From a virus, in IMG/VR virus record IMGVR_UViG_3300032245_001860, positions 62,001 to 126,000 of that record: a DNA stretch of 64,000 nucleotides; one strand, written 5' to 3'. Below the pieces are notes generated by a model. It was not told the origin of the DNA. It saw only the letters and a program-made list of their open reading frames with translations, and did not search any database. This document shows positions 13,608 to 24,411 of this stretch, in pieces; within the stretch, counting starts at the first letter, position 1; every line of letters starts with the position of its first letter. A program made the position numbers and the translations under genes.

Positions 13608-16198
13608 TATTCTACTCCAGAGCCACGTTCTTGAATCTGAGACAACATTTCAGGACTTATATTTACAATCAATCCTCTAAGTTCAGCAAAAGATGGTCTG
13701 ATTTTTCCATTTTCAATTAATTTTTTGAGCTCTTCCAAATCATTAATTTTTCTTCCAATTTTTCCCGAAGATAATGTTTGGTCTACATGTTGTTTAAACT
13801 CATAAAGAGGTGATGAATATAAATTTTTGATTTCATTTCTTATATCTTCAAGTTTTTTTCTTGTAACTTCATCACCCTTAACAGCCAATTGTTGAGATAA
13901 AAATGTTTCTCTTTCTCTAAGCTGATTAAACCTGGTTTGATGATTCCACATAGCTTGCCTATTGAATCCATTATTGTAGAAACCTGGTTCAGCGCCATTA
14001 TCTTTTGAGACAAAATCTGTTTTAGCTTGAACTAAACCCTCTGACAATTTGATATTAACAATAGCACAATCAACTAATTTGATACATCTATTTACATGAT
14101 CATCAAAATATTCTTTGATTGCATCGATATCAGTTATTCTTTTCAACTCTGTGGTTGGTGTGCAGTTTGCTTCGATCATCTTCATAGCCTTGCAGCCAAC
14201 ATTCTCTCTGCATTCTGTGGATTTGTAGATGATGTTTGCAGCGTCAAGTTTTCTCATTAGATTAGAAGGATAGTCTAAATCAGTGTCGTCCAAAGACAAA
14301 GATCTGGTTCCAAGCATGTCAGCAATGATGTCAGTAGTGAACATCTTCCATTCAGTCTTGAGTTTATAAAATTCATATTCTCTACAAGGTCCTATAGGTG
14401 CACAAATATATCTTGCTGGACCACCTTTTGCTTTTGGATATTCATAAATTGGAAGAGTTCCAGAAGGTCTCACCCATGGTCTGCCTTTATCTTGGATTTT
14501 CTTTTCCATGGTTAAGCGAATACCAAAATATTCACCAATAAACATCACTCTACGTTCAATAATAGGTTTTCTAATTATTGTGCTTTGAACTTCTCCATTT
14601 TCATCTGGCTCTGATAATGTTTCTTCTTCTTCAAAACCAACTAAAACATCACAAGGAAGCAAAAAGTCAATTTCAAATCTATCTGTTGAAGTTGGATTAT
14701 CTACAGGACAAGGTATTTTAACTGGAAAAGGTATAGGATCTAAATTGTAAAGTTCTCTTAATACTTTACACATATTCATTTCTTCATTAGAAAGAAATTT
14801 CAAATCAAATTCTTTGTATCTTGTGTCCTCAGGTTTTTCATATGCCTTACCAAGAATTTCTGCCACTGCTGGACACCCTGCGTCTCTTAAATCTTTTCTA
14901 AATGCAGCCAATTTAGTGGATGGGTCAAAAACATCAGCAGTAGATCCAACTACCACTAATTGCTTGTAATAATATCTTATTTTAGTACCATAACTATCAT
15001 TTGCATCTCTTGTAAGTACAGGAGTTTCTTCAATAGTTTCTACTTCTTGTTGCTTATCTAATTCAATCTGCTCTCTGGTTCTTTTCTGTCTTCTTGGACC
15101 TTTTTTTATCTTAATCCCTAAGACATCAAAAATTCTTTCATTATCATAACCATTTTCAATACATTCTTTTAATTTTGATAATGCATAAATTCTTTTATCT
15201 TGATCAGTTTCAAGTTTTCTGCCATTTTCATCAGTGTCAGGATAGAAATAATAGAAGATATCATCCTTGGTAGCTCTTTCAAGTGTAGATGGTTTTTCAG
15301 TTGGCAATCCAGGATCTGAAACTTTTCTTCTTCTTAAATCCTGCGGAACATCAATAATGTCATATTCAGGAAATGATCTTAATATCAAAGCAAGATTCCA
15401 TTGTATTCTTAAATTTTCAGGAATCAAAGCTGCCCATTCTTCTCTGTTTTCAATATCAGGATGGATTTCAAGAATTCTATTCCAAATTCTATTTTTAGAA
15501 TTGAGCATCATCACTTTTGTTTCAAGTGCTGAAATTGCTTGTTTAATTTCTTGTGATTGTACTGGATTCAATACAATTTTATCATTTTGTGCTATTTCTT
15601 GTTCTGAGTTTTGTAATATGAAAATCATTTGTTCCATAGTGAAATCAGGATTAAATAATTTTGCTGCAGTGAAAATTTCATTCCACCAATTTTTAACTTC
15701 TAATTTTCTTTTTAAAACTTCAATAGAAATGAAATTTCTAATAGCCGTAATTTCTTCTGGGTTTTTATATTCTAATAAAGGAGCGACAAGTTCTGGAGAC
15801 CTTGCTTCAACTCTGTGTAATTTGATGAGTTGAGGAATGAATACAGTACCAGCTCTTTGTAGTAACTTATCTATTATGCTATTTACAACAGCATCAGTAG
15901 GAAGAGTTGATCCTTCAGCTCTGATCAGATCACCAGCTAATTTTCTGAGGTTAACAATTGCGCCTCTATAACTTTCAAGAAAAGCAAAATCTTTATCAAC
16001 TTCTATTTGTTTATCAGCAAGCAATTTGTAAACTGTTTGTTCTGATATTTGGCCCTTTGCAAATTGTTCACCAATTTTTTCATCAAGCTGTTTTGAAATA
16101 TATGCTACTTTTTCTTCTAAAGTATTGCCAGGAATTTCATTGGGCTTGGTTTTAGGATTGATATCAACAGCTAATTTGATTTTCTTATAGTTAAACAT
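13607..16198 (-). CDS. 863-aa probable virion protein with possible nuclease-like core
   Basis: Not recognised as a whole. It begins MFNYKKIKLAVD, a variant of the K-x-A leader. Residues 20-400 are helical with Arg/Lys-rich segments (RRQKRTREQ near 370). Around residues 490-580 a RFEIDFLLP segment is followed later by MFIGEYFG and conserved-looking basic residues, which resembles a PD-(D/E)XK or Vsr-like layout, but this is tentative. Cysteines cluster near 660-690 (CRENVGCKAMKMIEANC). It heads a five-gene minus-strand run including duplicated tail proteins and RusA. Confidence 0.5.
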   Translation of the reverse strand: MFNYKKIKLAVDINPKTKPNEIPGNTLEEKVAYISKQLDEKIGEQFAKGQISEQTVYKLLADKQIEVDKDFAFLESYRGAIVNLRKLAGDLIRAEGSTLPTDAVVNSIIDKLLQRAGTVFIPQLIKLHRVEARSPELVAPLLEYKNPEEITAIRNFISIEVLKRKLEVKNWWNEIFTAAKLFNPDFTMEQMIFILQNSEQEIAQNDKIVLNPVQSQEIKQAISALETKVMMLNSKNRIWNRILEIHPDIENREEWAALIPENLRIQWNLALILRSFPEYDIIDVPQDLRRRKVSDPGLPTEKPSTLERATKDDIFYYFYPDTDENGRKLETDQDKRIYALSKLKECIENGYDNERIFDVLGIKIKKGPRRQKRTREQIELDKQQEVETIEETPVLTRDANDSYGTKIRYYYKQLVVVGSTADVFDPSTKLAAFRKDLRDAGCPAVAEILGKAYEKPEDTRYKEFDLKFLSNEEMNMCKVLRELYNLDPIPFPVKIPCPVDNPTSTDRFEIDFLLPCDVLVGFEEEETLSEPDENGEVQSTIIRKPIIERRVMFIGEYFGIRLTMEKKIQDKGRPWVRPSGTLPIYEYPKAKGGPARYICAPIGPCREYEFYKLKTEWKMFTTDIIADMLGTRSLSLDDTDLDYPSNLMRKLDAANIIYKSTECRENVGCKAMKMIEANCTPTTELKRITDIDAIKEYFDDHVNRCIKLVDCAIVNIKLSEGLVQAKTDFVSKDNGAEPGFYNNGFNRQAMWNHQTRFNQLRERETFLSQQLAVKGDEVTRKKLEDIRNEIKNLYSSPLYEFKQHVDQTLSSGKIGRKINDLEELKKLIENGKIRPSFAELRGLIVNISPEMLSQIQERGSGVE

Positions 16199-18366: not shown

Positions 18367-18858
18367 ATGTCCCTTTCTTTACCCAATTTATTTAAGATTG
18401 ATTCATGGAAAAATCAGCTTGTTAGTACTATTATTCAAAAGAATATAGTTGCACCTAACAAATTTTATTTTACAGATGATTGCAAGATAGAAATTCCAAG
18501 ATTGATTGAAGTTGTCAATAAAGATACTACAATCAAAAAAACTTGCACATATTCTAAAAACTTCACAGATTCTTATCTTTTATCAATATCCAACAATAAT
18601 TTAGATTATTCAAGTAAGTTTCTCATACCTTATTTTTCATCAAATAAATTTAAGTGTCTATCATGCAACAAACTTCATGATGGAAAAACAGACAAATGTT
18701 GTTCTATGGAAAAGTCTGTGGTTTTATTAGAACAAGCAAAATTGTACAAAGTTGAAATTCCAATATTGTCAGATATAGAAAAAACTCTTCAAGAATCAAA
18801 AGAAGAATTTGTCAGATTGCATTTTGTAGATTTTTTAGATACAATAATGTTGAGATGA
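18367..18858 (+). CDS. hypothetical protein with possible zinc site
   Basis: 163 aa, not recognised. Residues about 98-112 read CLSCNKLHDGKTDKCC, which could bind one zinc. It is Lys/Ser-rich. Its end overlaps the SbcC N-half start (ATGA), placing it at the head of the recombination operon and suggesting early expression. Confidence 0.55.
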   Translation: MSLSLPNLFKIDSWKNQLVSTIIQKNIVAPNKFYFTDDCKIEIPRLIEVVNKDTTIKKTCTYSKNFTDSYLLSISNNNLDYSSKFLIPYFSSNKFKCLSCNKLHDGKTDKCCSMEKSVVLLEQAKLYKVEIPILSDIEKTLQESKEEFVRLHFVDFLDTIMLR

Positions 18859-20021
18859 GTGAATCAAGACCAAATAGAAAAGTTAAAACTCTATATATTA
18901 AAAATGTAAACAACCATGAAGAATCAGAATATGAATTTCATGAGCACATGAATCTTATTGTTGGTTCTTCAGAAACTGGCAAATCAGCCTCAATCAGAGC
19001 ATTGACATTTGCTCTTTACAACAAATACAATGGTGATCTTGTCAACTGGGACGAAAAGTTTGCACAAGTAAAAGTTGTGTTTTTTGATGGGGCTGTAATT
19101 GTCAGAACCAAAGGCAAAGATATCAACCGCGTAGAGTTCAAATATGCTGGTCAAAAAGAATTTACAGTATATAAATCTTTTGGCTCAGATTATCCGGAAG
19201 AGGTTTGGAAATTTTTAGGAGATCCTCCACGTCTCCCTGATTCAGAACCTATTGCATATGCTGATCAACAAACCAAATTGTTTTTAGTTGATCAAAAACC
19301 AACACAACTTCCTACTACATTTTCTCAACTCACTGGCGTCGAAGACCTTGAAGATTGTTCATCCGCTTGTAATTCTAAAATCAAAGGTTATGAAAAATCA
19401 AATAAAGCTCTTGAAAATGAAATAAAAGATTTAGAAAATGAACTTGAAAATAACTTTTCCTCTCTTGATCAAGAAGTAGCTTTGCTTGAAGAATTTGAAG
19501 TTTTGCTTTCTGAAATTTCTGATATTGAAAAAGACATAACAAATTTACAAACTTATTTGAGAGACTACAATAGAATTGTAAAAGCTGGTAAAGAAGCTCA
19601 AAGCGAAATATCTAAGTGTAAAAAGCTACTTGATGTTTTACCTAATGTTAATTCATTGACAAAAGATTTCAATGATCTTCAGTCAATGCACAATTTGTTT
19701 GAAAATGCTGAAAAGTTATCTGCTAAAATTACTAAATACGAAAATAAAATTAAAATTGACAGAGCGATAACAGAAGGCGAATTTTCCACTTCAATTACTA
19801 ATTGTGACTTATTGCTTAACACACTATTGGATATGAGTGCAATGTTAGAAAAAGGTATAGATATAAATGATAAAATTTCTAAAAAGAATGAGATTATTTC
19901 GAAGCTTAATAAATCTATTAAAGAGAATACTGATGATTTAGAATCTACAATAAGTGAAGCTATTGAAAAGGGTGCTATTTGTTCAGCGTGTATGAAAATT
20001 GGTGGTGAATATGTCAGATAA
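18855..20021 (+). CDS. SbcC/Rad50/gp46-like recombination ATPase, N-terminal half
   Basis: 388 aa. The N-terminal lobe has the Walker A motif GSSETGKS (37-44) after the typical NHEESEYEF strand. A Q-loop-like region (YADQQTKLF) lies near 137-145. A coiled coil runs from about 165 to 370. The protein stops just after CSAC (376-379), which looks like the CxxC zinc hook where two Rad50 molecules join. No Walker B, signature or return coil is present; these are supplied by downstream genes. With SbcD it should process DNA ends for recombination-dependent replication. Confidence 0.85.
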   Translation: MSESRPNRKVKTLYIKNVNNHEESEYEFHEHMNLIVGSSETGKSASIRALTFALYNKYNGDLVNWDEKFAQVKVVFFDGAVIVRTKGKDINRVEFKYAGQKEFTVYKSFGSDYPEEVWKFLGDPPRLPDSEPIAYADQQTKLFLVDQKPTQLPTTFSQLTGVEDLEDCSSACNSKIKGYEKSNKALENEIKDLENELENNFSSLDQEVALLEEFEVLLSEISDIEKDITNLQTYLRDYNRIVKAGKEAQSEISKCKKLLDVLPNVNSLTKDFNDLQSMHNLFENAEKLSAKITKYENKIKIDRAITEGEFSTSITNCDLLLNTLLDMSAMLEKGIDINDKISKKNEIISKLNKSIKENTDDLESTISEAIEKGAICSACMKIGGEYVR

Positions 20022-21003
20022 GAAGAAAGTATTATTTGTTGGTGATAATCATATAAGTGGAAAAACACCATCAAATAGAATTGGGAGCTATCTTGAAGAC
20101 ACTGTTAACAAACTCAAAGATTGCTTGAATATAAGCAGAAGCGAGAAGGTTGATGCTATGGTGTTGTTAGGTGATCTTTTCGATGTAAGAGAAGTTACAC
20201 CAGAAGCAAGAAATGTCACCTTAGCAGCATTAAGAAGCCAGGATGATGGAAAACCTTGGCCTTTTCCTGTTTATATTACTGTTGGAAATCATGACATACA
20301 ATCTTCATATCCTTTAGACAAATCAAGTTTAGGTACTTTAATTGCTGCTGGTGTTTTACTTAAAGAAGATTATGTTCCTGAGCTTGGAATTGCTTTCGCT
20401 CACTTTAATCCTGATCTTGATAAAAACATTCAAGAGGGATATTTGGCTTCACATCATGCAATTATTTGGTCTTGTCATGCTTCTATTGGAGATAAACCAG
20501 ACCGATTTGAAGAATACATTATACCTTTTGATAATATTCCAGTTCACCCTAACAATAGTTTAATAATTTCTGGACACATCCACCATCCTATGTCTTGTGA
20601 AAGAAAAGATGGCAAAAGGTTTATAAATCCAGGTGCGATAGGGCGTACATCAGCTACTAAAGACAATTTAAATCGCACATTGAAAGTTTTTCTTTTGGAA
20701 TATGACCTTGATGGCAAAATCTACAGTGAAAAATATTTAGATTTACCATCTGCAAAACCAGCGCATTTAGTTTTTAAATTGGATGAAATTGAAACAAAAA
20801 AGCAGTCCAAAACAGAGGTCAAAGAGTTTATCAAATCTATATCTGCATTGAAAACAAGCAATTGGTTGCATTTGCATGATGAAGATAAGTTGAAGATTTT
20901 AGTTACTGATGCTAAAGAAGATGGATTGAATGATGATACAATCGCAATCATTTCTGACACTTTCCAATCAGTGAAGAATGTATCTAAAGAGGAATCAAAT
21001 TAA
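20011..21003 (+). CDS. sbcD: SbcD/Mre11/gp47-like nuclease
   Basis: 330 aa from ATG 20011, which has GGTGGTGA upstream and overlaps the SbcC-N stop. Metallophosphoesterase motifs are all present in order: GDNH (11-14), GDLFD (about 54-58), GNHD (about 88-91), and GHIHHP near 190 for the two-metal centre. It would be the 3'-5' exonuclease and endonuclease partner of the SbcC pieces. It lies between the two halves of SbcC. The C-terminal third is charged and probably contacts the coiled coil. Confidence 0.9.
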   Translation: MSDKKKVLFVGDNHISGKTPSNRIGSYLEDTVNKLKDCLNISRSEKVDAMVLLGDLFDVREVTPEARNVTLAALRSQDDGKPWPFPVYITVGNHDIQSSYPLDKSSLGTLIAAGVLLKEDYVPELGIAFAHFNPDLDKNIQEGYLASHHAIIWSCHASIGDKPDRFEEYIIPFDNIPVHPNNSLIISGHIHHPMSCERKDGKRFINPGAIGRTSATKDNLNRTLKVFLLEYDLDGKIYSEKYLDLPSAKPAHLVFKLDEIETKKQSKTEVKEFIKSISALKTSNWLHLHDEDKLKILVTDAKEDGLNDDTIAIISDTFQSVKNVSKEESN

Positions 21004-21281
21004 TGGAAGAAAATTTAGTTGACCAATACTCAGAAAGAATTGAAGTTTTGAAGAATGCTATTTCAAAAGCACAAGCTACTCTTGAAGTCAGAGAAACTGA
21101 AAAGAATAGCCTTAAAGTCGAATATGCAAATTTAGAAAAAGATTGCAAAGAAAAATACAATATTTCGCTTAAAAATCTGAGTAAAGAAATTTCTGACAAA
21201 GAAGCTTTAGTCTTGGAAAAGCTTGAAGAGGCTGAATCTAAATACAAATCTCTTACGGATCCAAAAAATGAATCGGAATGA
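21003..21281 (+). CDS. coiled-coil protein, probable return arm of split SbcC
   Basis: 92 aa, almost entirely Lys/Glu/Leu heptads (about residues 8-85), with no catalytic motif. Its position between SbcD and the SbcC C-terminal half fits the antiparallel return coil of Rad50. It ends 14 nt inside the next gene, in another frame. A +1 slip on the A-rich stretch at 21263-21268 could fuse it to the C-half, or the two may be separate chains. Confidence 0.65.
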   Translation: MEENLVDQYSERIEVLKNAISKAQATLEVRETEKNSLKVEYANLEKDCKEKYNISLKNLSKEISDKEALVLEKLEEAESKYKSLTDPKNESE

Positions 21282-21981
21282 CTTAGAAAGACAATTTAAA
21301 GCTTTAGAAAAAGAAATCAATCAAAGAGTGTATACAAGAGATACCTTAATTAGAACTATATCTGATAAAAAGAGTGTGCTTGAATCTGATATAGCAGAAA
21401 AAGGTCATTTAAGTAAAGCAAGTTTATTTTTCAAATCTAAGGCCCAAGACACCAGAGAATATCATTTACAAATAATTAATTACCATTTAACTCCGCTAAT
21501 AAAGAGAATGTATGGTGATGATTATGAATTTGGGTTTCTTTACAATGAAAAGGCACAAGAAAAGGGTGAAAAGATTGGCTTTAATCTTTACCCCACAATA
21601 ACAAATACAGTCAATGGAAAAAGAGTTACCACATACTCTATGGATTCAAGAGGTGGTGGTATCTTAGAAACCATTAGTGTATTTCTAAGGTGGGTTTTTA
21701 TCCGTTTAGATGGATATATTGGCCCTTTAATTTTAGATGAGTCTTGGTCTGCAGTTTCTGCTGATGATAAAATGATACAGCTCATTGAATTCTTGGTTGA
21801 ATATGTTAAAGAAACTGATTCTCAAATTGTGTTTGTCACCCATAGAGGAGAGATTTTTGGTAAAGCAGCTGATAAAATTTTTCTTGTTCAAAAAGAAGAT
21901 GGTGTTGCTAAATCATCAGAAACAACCTATCAGGAAATTGTTGAGAGACAATTGTCATTTGTAAATAAAAATGAAAACTAA
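21268..21981 (+). CDS. SbcC/Rad50/gp46-like ATPase, C-terminal half
   Basis: 237 aa from ATG 21268. A longer frame to 21223 lacks an ATG. Residues 1-60 are coil. The lobe has SRGGG (127-131) at the ABC signature position, Walker B LILDES (154-159) and the switch Thr-His (191-192). It lacks Walker A, which is in the 18855 gene. The ATPase must therefore assemble from two polypeptides. It overlaps both neighbours. Confidence 0.85.
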   Translation: MNRNDLERQFKALEKEINQRVYTRDTLIRTISDKKSVLESDIAEKGHLSKASLFFKSKAQDTREYHLQIINYHLTPLIKRMYGDDYEFGFLYNEKAQEKGEKIGFNLYPTITNTVNGKRVTTYSMDSRGGGILETISVFLRWVFIRLDGYIGPLILDESWSAVSADDKMIQLIEFLVEYVKETDSQIVFVTHRGEIFGKAADKIFLVQKEDGVAKSSETTYQEIVERQLSFVNKNEN

Positions 21982-22801
21982 AGACGAAACATACGAAATG
22001 ATACTTGAAGTGTACAAAAAAGATGTCCCTTTGCAGTCTGAAATTGCCAATCCATTTTCGGCCAATAAAAGGCAACGTAAAAAGACTTTGGTTCCTAAAG
22101 CTCCTAATGGATTGCCTGAAGATGTAAATACTTGGAATAGTCGAAATTTTGTGGATTATTTTGCCGAAGAATATCATAAACACTTTTCTGGTACTTACAA
22201 AAAAACATATTCTTCTGATTGCTCTTTTGTAAATCAAATATTTGAATTTATGGAAGCAAATGATTTAGATAGAAATGAAAACACCAAGAAATTTATTGAT
22301 TGGAGTTTTGTTAATTCTCAAGTTGTTGCAAACAAGAATGGTGTATTTTTGCTTGGAACTATTAAGAATCATTTGAATAGCTATTTCCAGCAAGCTATAT
22401 TAGATAAAAGAGAAAAGTCAATTCAAATTGATATCTTCAATGACATTGTCAAGTTAGATAAAAATGGCAAAACAAGAGAAGTATTTATCACTTATGGCAT
22501 TCCTCTTGCTGCTACTTATTTTGTGAATCATAAAAATATTTCACTTAAAAATGTTATTGCTGGTTTACAACAATTATTCACCACTTTTGCTAATGGTGAC
22601 AGTGAACAAAAATTATTCATAAGCAAAGTTATCCAAAGATCAATTAGTAGAGGCCCGTATATTGAAGGTTTTGAACTTATTGACTGGAGAGATGTTTTTA
22701 AAGAAGTTGTTGAGCCCTTCAAGAGTGAACTATGGTATAGAGAGGAAGATTTTTCCAGTAAACCACAATACAAGCTTGAAAAATTCTTAAATGAAAACTA
22801 A
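21971..22801 (+). CDS. hypothetical protein in replication operon
   Basis: 276 aa, not recognised. A basic patch (KRQRKK, about residues 32-37) near the N-terminus is followed by a helical region rich in aromatic residues. It overlaps the SbcC C-half by 11 nt and the Ycf46-like gene by 1 nt. Co-translation with both suggests a DNA-metabolism role, but no motif supports a specific one. Confidence 0.55.
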   Translation: MKTKDETYEMILEVYKKDVPLQSEIANPFSANKRQRKKTLVPKAPNGLPEDVNTWNSRNFVDYFAEEYHKHFSGTYKKTYSSDCSFVNQIFEFMEANDLDRNENTKKFIDWSFVNSQVVANKNGVFLLGTIKNHLNSYFQQAILDKREKSIQIDIFNDIVKLDKNGKTREVFITYGIPLAATYFVNHKNISLKNVIAGLQQLFTTFANGDSEQKLFISKVIQRSISRGPYIEGFELIDWRDVFKEVVEPFKSELWYREEDFSSKPQYKLEKFLNEN

Positions 22802-24411
22802 TGTATGGAATCAAATACCAGAATGTAATAGAAGAACTTGAACTGCTCATAAGATCAAAACGTACAGTTTTGAGTATTGTTTGCCATGAGGAAAATAAAG
22901 TTTTATCGGCTTTGGAGGAAATATGCTCCAAGGCCGATACTTCTTGGGATTTGATTAAGTGGGATATAGTTACAGGATTACACTCCACCTTTCCTGAGTT
23001 TTTACCTACCAAAGATTCTGAAAAACAACTTGATCAAGAAGAAGTATTGAGCTGGTTTGAACAACTCATAGTACCTAAAAATAAATTTGTCATTTTAGTT
23101 ATGAAAGATTTTAATAAATTTTTAGGATCAAACAATTATAGAGGACAAGTAGAAAATAAAGTTGTCAGACACATCAAGAATCTTTCTCAAAATTTTACAA
23201 CTCAAAATAAAACTATTATTTTCCTATCTTCCAATTATGATATTCCTTCAGATTTAGATAAATATATTCATTTTTTAGATTGGCCTCTTCCTGAAAAGAC
23301 TGATATTGAAAATAAACTAAAAGATCTTTTGACAAGAGCTTCTAAAAGAAAAGATTTAGCTGAAAAATTTCAGGTTGCGTATACCAATGAAGACTTTGAA
23401 CTGATTGTAAATTCATTTAGAGGATTGACTTTATCTGAATGTGAGCAAATTTGTGCCTATTGTATGATTAAGTATCCTAAGCTCATGCCTGATGTTATTT
23501 CTATGCAAAAGAAAGAAATCATTCGAAAATCAGGCTTATTGGAATGGATTTCTTCTGACATTGACATGGAATCTATTGGTGGCCTTGAAAATCTTAAACA
23601 ATGGCTTGGCAAAAGAAAAGATGCATTTTCTCAAGATGCCATAGATTACGGACTGCCCTCAAACCCTAAAGGCCTTATGCTTGTAGGAATACAAGGAGCT
23701 GGTAAGAGCCTATTTGCAAAAGGTATTTCTTCTTTTTGGAATTTCCCATTGATAAGATTAGACATGGGTAAAGTGTTTTCGGGAATTGTTGGGTCTTCTG
23801 AACAAAATATGCGACAGGTTTTTAAAGTTGTTGAATCTGTAGCCCCATGCATCCTTTGGTGTGATGAAATTGACAAGGGAATGTCTGGTGGTAGAAGTTC
23901 TGGTCATACTGATGGTGGGACAACTTCAAGAGTTTTAGGATCTTGGCTAACCTGGATGCAAGAAAAAACAGCACCTGTATTTGTAGTGGCTACCGCTAAT
24001 GATGTTTCAAACCTTCCACCTGAGTTATTGAGAAAAGGTAGGTTTGATGAAATATTCTTTGTTGATTTGCCTAATGAAAGTGAAAGAGAGAAAATATTTA
24101 TGATTCACTTAACGCAAAGAAATAGAGACTATAAAAAATTTGACATTCATTCTTTAGTCAAAGAATCACAAAACTTTACTGGAGCTGAAATAGAATCCTC
24201 AATAGAAGCCGCAATGTATGAAGCATTTAGTGATAATAAAAGAGATATCACAACTAAGGATATACTACTGAGCTTGAAAAACTCTGTTCCTATCGCTATA
24301 ATCATGAAAGAAGAAATTAACGCTCTAAGGCAATGGGCTTCTGAAAGAGCCCGAAGCGCATCAATATCTCAAACTTATGCACGGCCTTCTTATGATGAGG
24401 ATGATTTGTAA
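22801..24411 (+). CDS. Ycf46-like AAA+ ATPase
   Basis: 536 aa. The N-terminal 250 residues are a family-type regulatory region. The AAA+ module has Walker A GIQGAGKS (296-303), Walker B ILWCDEID (about 351-358), then [19 protein letters not shown], sensor-1 VVATAND and the [16 protein letters not shown] second-region motif with its Arg finger. The closing [10 protein letters not shown] tail also matches. This motif string is characteristic of the Ycf46 family of cyanobacteria, algal plastids and some bacteria. Its placement between SbcC and DnaC suggests remodelling of replication or repair complexes. Confidence 0.85.

Follow-up and report, generated by a model that had tools for sequence, protein, structure and literature searches.

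Gene organization of the locus

The DNA analysed here (64,000 nucleotides, hereafter the window) corresponds to bases 62001-126000 of a 315,852-bp virus record, which represents a large phage. Four plus-strand genes, each overlapping the next by 1-14 nt, encode the N-terminal half of a Rad50/SbcC-type ATPase (N-half), the nuclease subunit SbcD/Mre11, a small coiled-coil protein (K), and the C-terminal half of the ATPase (C-half). The following features were assigned:

18855..20021, plus strand: Rad50/SbcC N-half (388 aa), with the N-lobe of the ABC head, a helical arm and a terminal hook
18963..18986, plus strand: Walker A motif GSSETGKS, residues 37-44, from the sequence
19338..19979, plus strand: helical arm, residues 162-375, from the AF2 model (helices 162-200, 204-302 and 311-371)
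19980..19991, plus strand: zinc-hook motif CSAC (residues 376-379), with nine more residues before the stop
20011..21003, plus strand: SbcD/Mre11 nuclease subunit (330 aa; PF00149, E 2e-10)
21003..21281, plus strand: K, a small, separate coiled-coil protein (92 aa) encoded just upstream of the C-half
21268..21981, plus strand: Rad50/SbcC C-half (237 aa), with one long helix (residues 3-82) followed by the C-lobe of the ABC head
21646..21660, plus strand: residues 127-131, a degenerate ABC signature (SRGGG instead of LSGGE), from the alignment to 3qkr_B
21724..21741, plus strand: Walker B motif PLILDE with the catalytic Glu, ending in D157-E158
21841..21843, plus strand: H-loop histidine H192 (His in 33 of 35 C-halves)

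The stop region of the N-half gene overlaps the start of the SbcD gene (20021 versus 20011), the end of the SbcD gene and the start of the K gene share position 21003, and the K and C-half genes overlap by 14 nt (21281 versus 21268). Overlaps of a few bases continue into the genes on either side of the complex; the flanking proteins (18367-18858 and 21971-22801) had no Pfam match and a weak PHROG match or none. Downstream of the complex lie an AAA ATPase (22801-24411, phrog_8638), a DnaC-like loader and a DnaB-like helicase. Full-length relatives of this AAA ATPase, about 30% identical and annotated as AAA-ATPase, were found in mycobacteriophages such as Firecracker. The complex sits in a replication gene cluster, and a role in recombination and replication would be in line with this setting.

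The N-half ends in a zinc-hook motif

The N-half matched PF13476 (E 7e-10) and phrog_16465 (E 1e-23), and a family profile of 38 dereplicated N-halves (that of the window and 37 from other contigs) matched Rad50 5f3w (E 1e-19). Its AF2 model consisted of an ABC N-lobe and arm helices, with a mean pLDDT of 79 and a poorly modelled outer arm (block pLDDT of 42-53 over residues 261-310). The best Foldseek match to this model was Rad50 of P. furiosus (9a9j_A/1ii8_A, E 2e-6). Residues G37, G42 and K43 of the Walker A motif were nearly invariant across the 38 sequences.

An earlier note on this DNA had described an N-terminal piece that stops nine residues after CSAC, and this is indeed the case (residues 376-379 of 388). 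Both cysteines of the CxxC motif were invariant in the 38 N-halves, and among distinct N-half tails the motif lay 2-17 residues from the C-terminus. A terminal hook was also present in three further N-halves, as well as in those of Tunturi_5 and Mvi-JY20; the sole exception was the N-half of phage Magritte, outside the 38-sequence set, which had no CxxC. A profile of the last ~58 N-half residues matched two solved structures of the Rad50 hook, 1l8d (E 2e-4) and 6zff (E 3e-4), with CPxC placed on CPxC, and the alignment of CSAC with known hooks was thereby supported. In one-chain SbcC proteins, the motif is found mid-chain (288/560 in T4, 324/637 in SPO1 and 506/1048 in E. coli), whereas in the N-halves it is terminal. 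A CxxC zinc hook is present at the tip of the arm, zinc binding itself being predicted from the sequence. Beyond the CxxC, the hook of the window offers no Cys or His, and the expectation is therefore still that a single zinc would be shared between two N-chains, just as in ordinary Rad50.

The C-half retains Walker B and carries a degenerate signature

The C-half matched phrog_15167 (E 6e-17), and a profile of 35 C-halves matched Rad50 3qkr_B (E 1e-17). In the AF2 model (pLDDT 91), helix 3-82 was followed by the C-lobe, for which Foldseek returned SMC C-lobes first and then Rad50 1ii8_B. The Rad50 heads 9a9j and 1ii8 were deposited as separate chains, A (matching the N-half) and B (matching the C-half).

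Walker A and Walker B are located on separate chains, the first and the last, as had been noted earlier. Residues D157 and E158 of Walker B were invariant (35 out of 35 C-halves). The earlier note had placed the ABC signature on the same chain; Walker B is there, but the signature is degenerate, which the note had not seen. In the window, SRGGG is found instead of LSGG(E/Q), and the profile alignment to 3qkr_B puts an Arg on the signature Ser. At this position, 20 of the 35 C-halves had Arg and three had Ser. In P. furiosus Rad50, the S793R mutant is reportedly deficient in ATP binding and in ATP-dependent dimer formation (PMC7247530), so the split protein may have a different or weak ATP cycle. 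Because it keeps Walker A, Walker B and the H-loop, we think that ATP is still used and that head engagement is altered, a view that rests on one profile alignment.

The absence of the signature Ser from 32 of the 35 C-halves would also fit a structural, largely ATP-independent relative, the heads of which skip the normal ATP-driven dimer cycle and which mainly tethers DNA or holds SbcD. The reported deficiency of S793R (PMC7247530) points the same way, as does the yeast equivalent of this mutant, which reportedly still tethers DNA ends (PMC7049730). However, the family shows hardly any departures from the Walker A Gly and Lys, the Walker B Asp-Glu pair and the H-loop, which suggests that ATP binding and hydrolysis are under selection, and we consider an ATP-independent role unlikely.

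Arm length varies in steps of about 47 residues

N-arm length, taken from the equivalent of residue 162 to the hook, fell into classes of 147-153, 187-202, 245-254, 301-302 and 347-349 residues, with a few arms in between, including that of the window (214 residues). Across the family, these lengths step by about 47 residues, which matches an internal 47-residue repeat, a module that the earlier note had not seen. In arm self-comparisons scored against shuffles that keep heptad composition, the combined Z was 19.5 for a period of 47 and 16.0 for 94; because the sequences are related, these values are not probabilities.

Against N-arms of 147-349 residues, the C-half offers a single helix of ~80 residues, partly inside the head, which therefore cannot pair along the whole N-arm. 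The arms are thus unmatched and belong to two chains, which bears out the earlier statement that the topology must differ from that of the normal enzyme. From these lengths we infer that the N-chain provides most of the arm, and dimerisation may be altered as well.

K is a separate conserved component

K proteins were 77-108 aa long and were characterized by a coiled coil with a short conserved turn; their genes usually adjoined that of the C-half. Most of them matched PHROG 18563, for which no function is listed. K was detected in 49 out of the 53 distinct loci, in one of which (L013) it lay 6 kb away and was doubtful. This count leans on seed choice, because it used a second HMM built from members missed by the first, with seeds picked by position. 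In Microcystis phage Mvi-JY20, a 94-aa coil ORF occupies the K position and was assigned to K by position and coil character, as the K profile did not reach it.

The 92-aa coil that the earlier note had seen ahead of the C-lobe is therefore present, but it was not simply the remainder of the return arm: K is, as far as its sequence tells, a conserved separate fourth component. We rejected the idea that K supplies the missing return arm, because K stays nearly constant in size and the N-arm varies more than twofold. A single frameshifted gene comprising K and the C-half was also rejected, since relatives have a gap or a clamp gene between the two. A sliding clamp gene (DNA polymerase III beta-type) was located between K and the C-half in L006 (10300-11433), and a clamp gene of the same type occupied this position in L012, L018, L032, L054, L055 and L058. 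In L034 and L063, a gene of similar size, with no Pfam match, was found there.

The SbcD/Mre11 subunit

A profile of 32 SbcD sequences matched Mre11 4hd0 (E 6.5e-16), and D12, H14, D55, H94, D95, H156 and H191, which belong to the Mre11 motifs and metal site, were invariant. In L009 (7129-9447), one 772-aa frame contains both SbcD and the Rad50 N-half, and K and the C-half follow directly downstream as genes of their own. For Bacillus phage vB_BboS-125, the record (NC_048735.1) has no annotation of the SbcD gene (L003 6656-7636).

The split is conserved, whereas gene order is not

When alignments of the C-half and the N-half, as well as the C-half of vB_BboS-125, were used as queries, about 80 viral loci were retrieved. 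Small alignments were needed, as a single-sequence scan of viral contigs with the C-half of the window gave no matches. A smaller C-half profile run on genome contigs matched only Peptoniphilus obesi, plus one weak match. Further split loci were those of vB_BboS-125, Magritte, the uncultured phage LR745208, Mvi-JY20, Tunturi_5 and P. obesi. Counts were made over 53 loci with distinct C-halves.

The N- and C-halves were in one reading frame in none of the 53 distinct loci, so that conservation of the split, a check proposed in the earlier note, was borne out. Based on these sequences, the split Rad50 is a trait of a phage clade and not a one-off. With the genes abbreviated as N, D (SbcD), K and C, the order was NKCD in 27 loci, NDKC in 18 and DNKC in two, the remainder being partial or unresolved. 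NDKC is the order of the window, common to 17 other loci; one of the 18 has a broken C gene. In a tree of the N-lobe, C-half and SbcD, the orders were separated, with supports of 0.929 for the NKCD side, 0.995 for NDKC and 0.971 for DNKC, and the window stood by itself at the end of a long branch on the NDKC side. The same compact arrangement was found in Mvi-JY20, where the four genes are annotated as 'hypothetical proteins'.

In three other genomes (Tunturi_5, G002 and G004), the halves were separated by roughly 40-110 kb. Tunturi_5, whose genome is complete and circular, carries its N-half at 126949-128406 and its C-half at 19077-19658; gp179, which we had taken for the C-half from its size and position, was the wrong gene. 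The N-half and the C-half locus lay at ~28 kb and ~69 kb in G002, and at ~64 kb and ~25 kb in G004. In Magritte, the N-half, the C-half and Mre11 were all at different places. Such distances indicate independent genes and not one frameshifted gene. The position of SbcD between the halves, which the earlier note had stressed, is thus true of the window, but it is one of several gene orders and not a defining feature, given the NKCD and DNKC loci and halves lying tens of kb apart. In vB_BboS-125, an AP2-domain (homing-endonuclease-like) gene lies between the N-half and K (L003 4816-5388); it may be left over from the process by which genes become separated.

These distributions bear on whether the split is an assembly error, a sequencing frameshift or a decaying gene. 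In phages, SbcC is usually a single chain (T4 gp46, SPO1 gp21.9), and in the relative L055 the C-half itself occupies two consecutive frames (14560-15178; a sequencing error or a further break), as an artefact or pseudogene might. However, the same split recurs in vB_BboS-125, Magritte, Mvi-JY20 and many independently assembled contigs, which excludes an assembly error that would hide a joined frame; moreover, a whole gene lies between the halves, which can be up to ~109 kb apart, and the catalytic and hook residues are invariant. The probability left for an artefact is negligible.

That the halves end up as a single Rad50 chain after all, through programmed frameshifting, RNA splicing or split inteins, appeared scarcely more probable. 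The 14-nt overlap makes a frameshift from K into the C-half conceivable in the window; elsewhere, K and C do not overlap (vB_BboS-125) or have a clamp gene between them, and in most loci N and C have SbcD or other genes between them. Furthermore, the N-half stops right after the hook, and no intein-like stretch was noticed, outside any dedicated search, between hook and stop.

The distances between the genes could instead mean that the halves work apart, the N-half and the C-half each pairing with another protein. Neither lobe has a complete ATP site, however; both halves were found in nearly all sufficiently long records, usually close together and on the same strand, and the window's own record contained no other Rad50 N-lobe. 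We regard separate functions as quite improbable.

Comparison with known systems

The best profile matches for the N-lobe, C-lobe, hook and Mre11 were all to archaeal Mre11-Rad50 (Pyrococcus, Methanocaldococcus). The archaeal complex differs in having one Rad50 chain, a long antiparallel arm, a mid-chain hook and a signature Ser; we know of no K protein in archaeal Mre11-Rad50. The E. coli SbcCD, T4 gp46/gp47 and SPO1 gp21.9/gp21.3 complexes share the ATPase-nuclease design and the CxxC, and those of T4 and SPO1 also share the replication/recombination setting. Their SbcC is one chain, whereas the split phage Rad50 is two, and the C-half profile did not match the C-lobes of E. coli, T4 or SPO1 SbcC.

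Mre11/Rad50 fusions of the Mimivirus R555 type join SbcD to Rad50, as in L009, according to the sections of PMC3175470 consulted. The same sections describe SbcD/SbcC fusions of Bacillus phage 0305phi8-36 and Anaerostipes that lack one P-loop segment; in our view, these two could be the same kind of split. The sections report no separate C-half or split at the hook, and Rad50 is more complete in most of the fusions described. No Rad50/SbcC split at the hook was found in the open-licence literature, and the parts consulted of a jumbo phage review, which describes SbcC and SbcD as near-universal, do not mention one. PHROG 16465 ('exonuclease'), 15167 ('ATPase') and 18563 (no function) match the N-half, the C-half and most K proteins, respectively; they are separate families and were not recognised as one complex.

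A proposed Mre11-Rad50 complex with a two-chain Rad50

The frames and the profile matches to the N-lobe, C-lobe, hook and Mre11 confirm the central claim of the earlier note, a Rad50/SbcC split at the hook, which is the metal-binding tip at which the arms of two Rad50 molecules normally come together. We propose, with a probability of roughly 0.78, that the locus encodes a functional phage Mre11-Rad50 (SbcCD-type) complex for DNA-end processing, the Rad50 of which is permanently two polypeptides cut at the hook. The system is, by its sequence features, a variant of Mre11-Rad50, as it lacks two defining features, the single chain and LSGG.

In the proposed complex, the N- and C-lobes would assemble non-covalently into one ABC head, and two such heads would sit on a SbcD dimer. 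Two N-arms, each contributing one CxxC motif, would be joined at their tips by a shared zinc. The arm would be built mainly from the N-chain, as ~47-residue helical modules, with the short C-half helix and K bracing only its base. The complex may then act on the ends of phage DNA in recombination and replication. More tentatively, and with the odds somewhat against it, these genes might define a four-subunit class of Mre11-Rad50, with a modular one-chain arm, a free C-terminal hook, a dropped return arm, a K brace and head engagement through an Arg signature.

In the textbook view, a Rad50 or SMC protein consists of one polypeptide that turns back on itself at a hook or hinge. With its split at the hook and an extra coil protein, this Rad50 machine must be assembled in an unusual way, and three separately annotated phage families (PHROG) are joined into one complex. 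The phage clade with the split Rad50 is long-lived and has apparently dropped most of the return strand; a clade that cuts Rad50 at the hook in this manner is a natural experiment on the purpose of the arm and hook. Moreover, this clade breaks the signature Ser held to be essential for ATP-driven dimerisation, and thus offers a direct test of that need.
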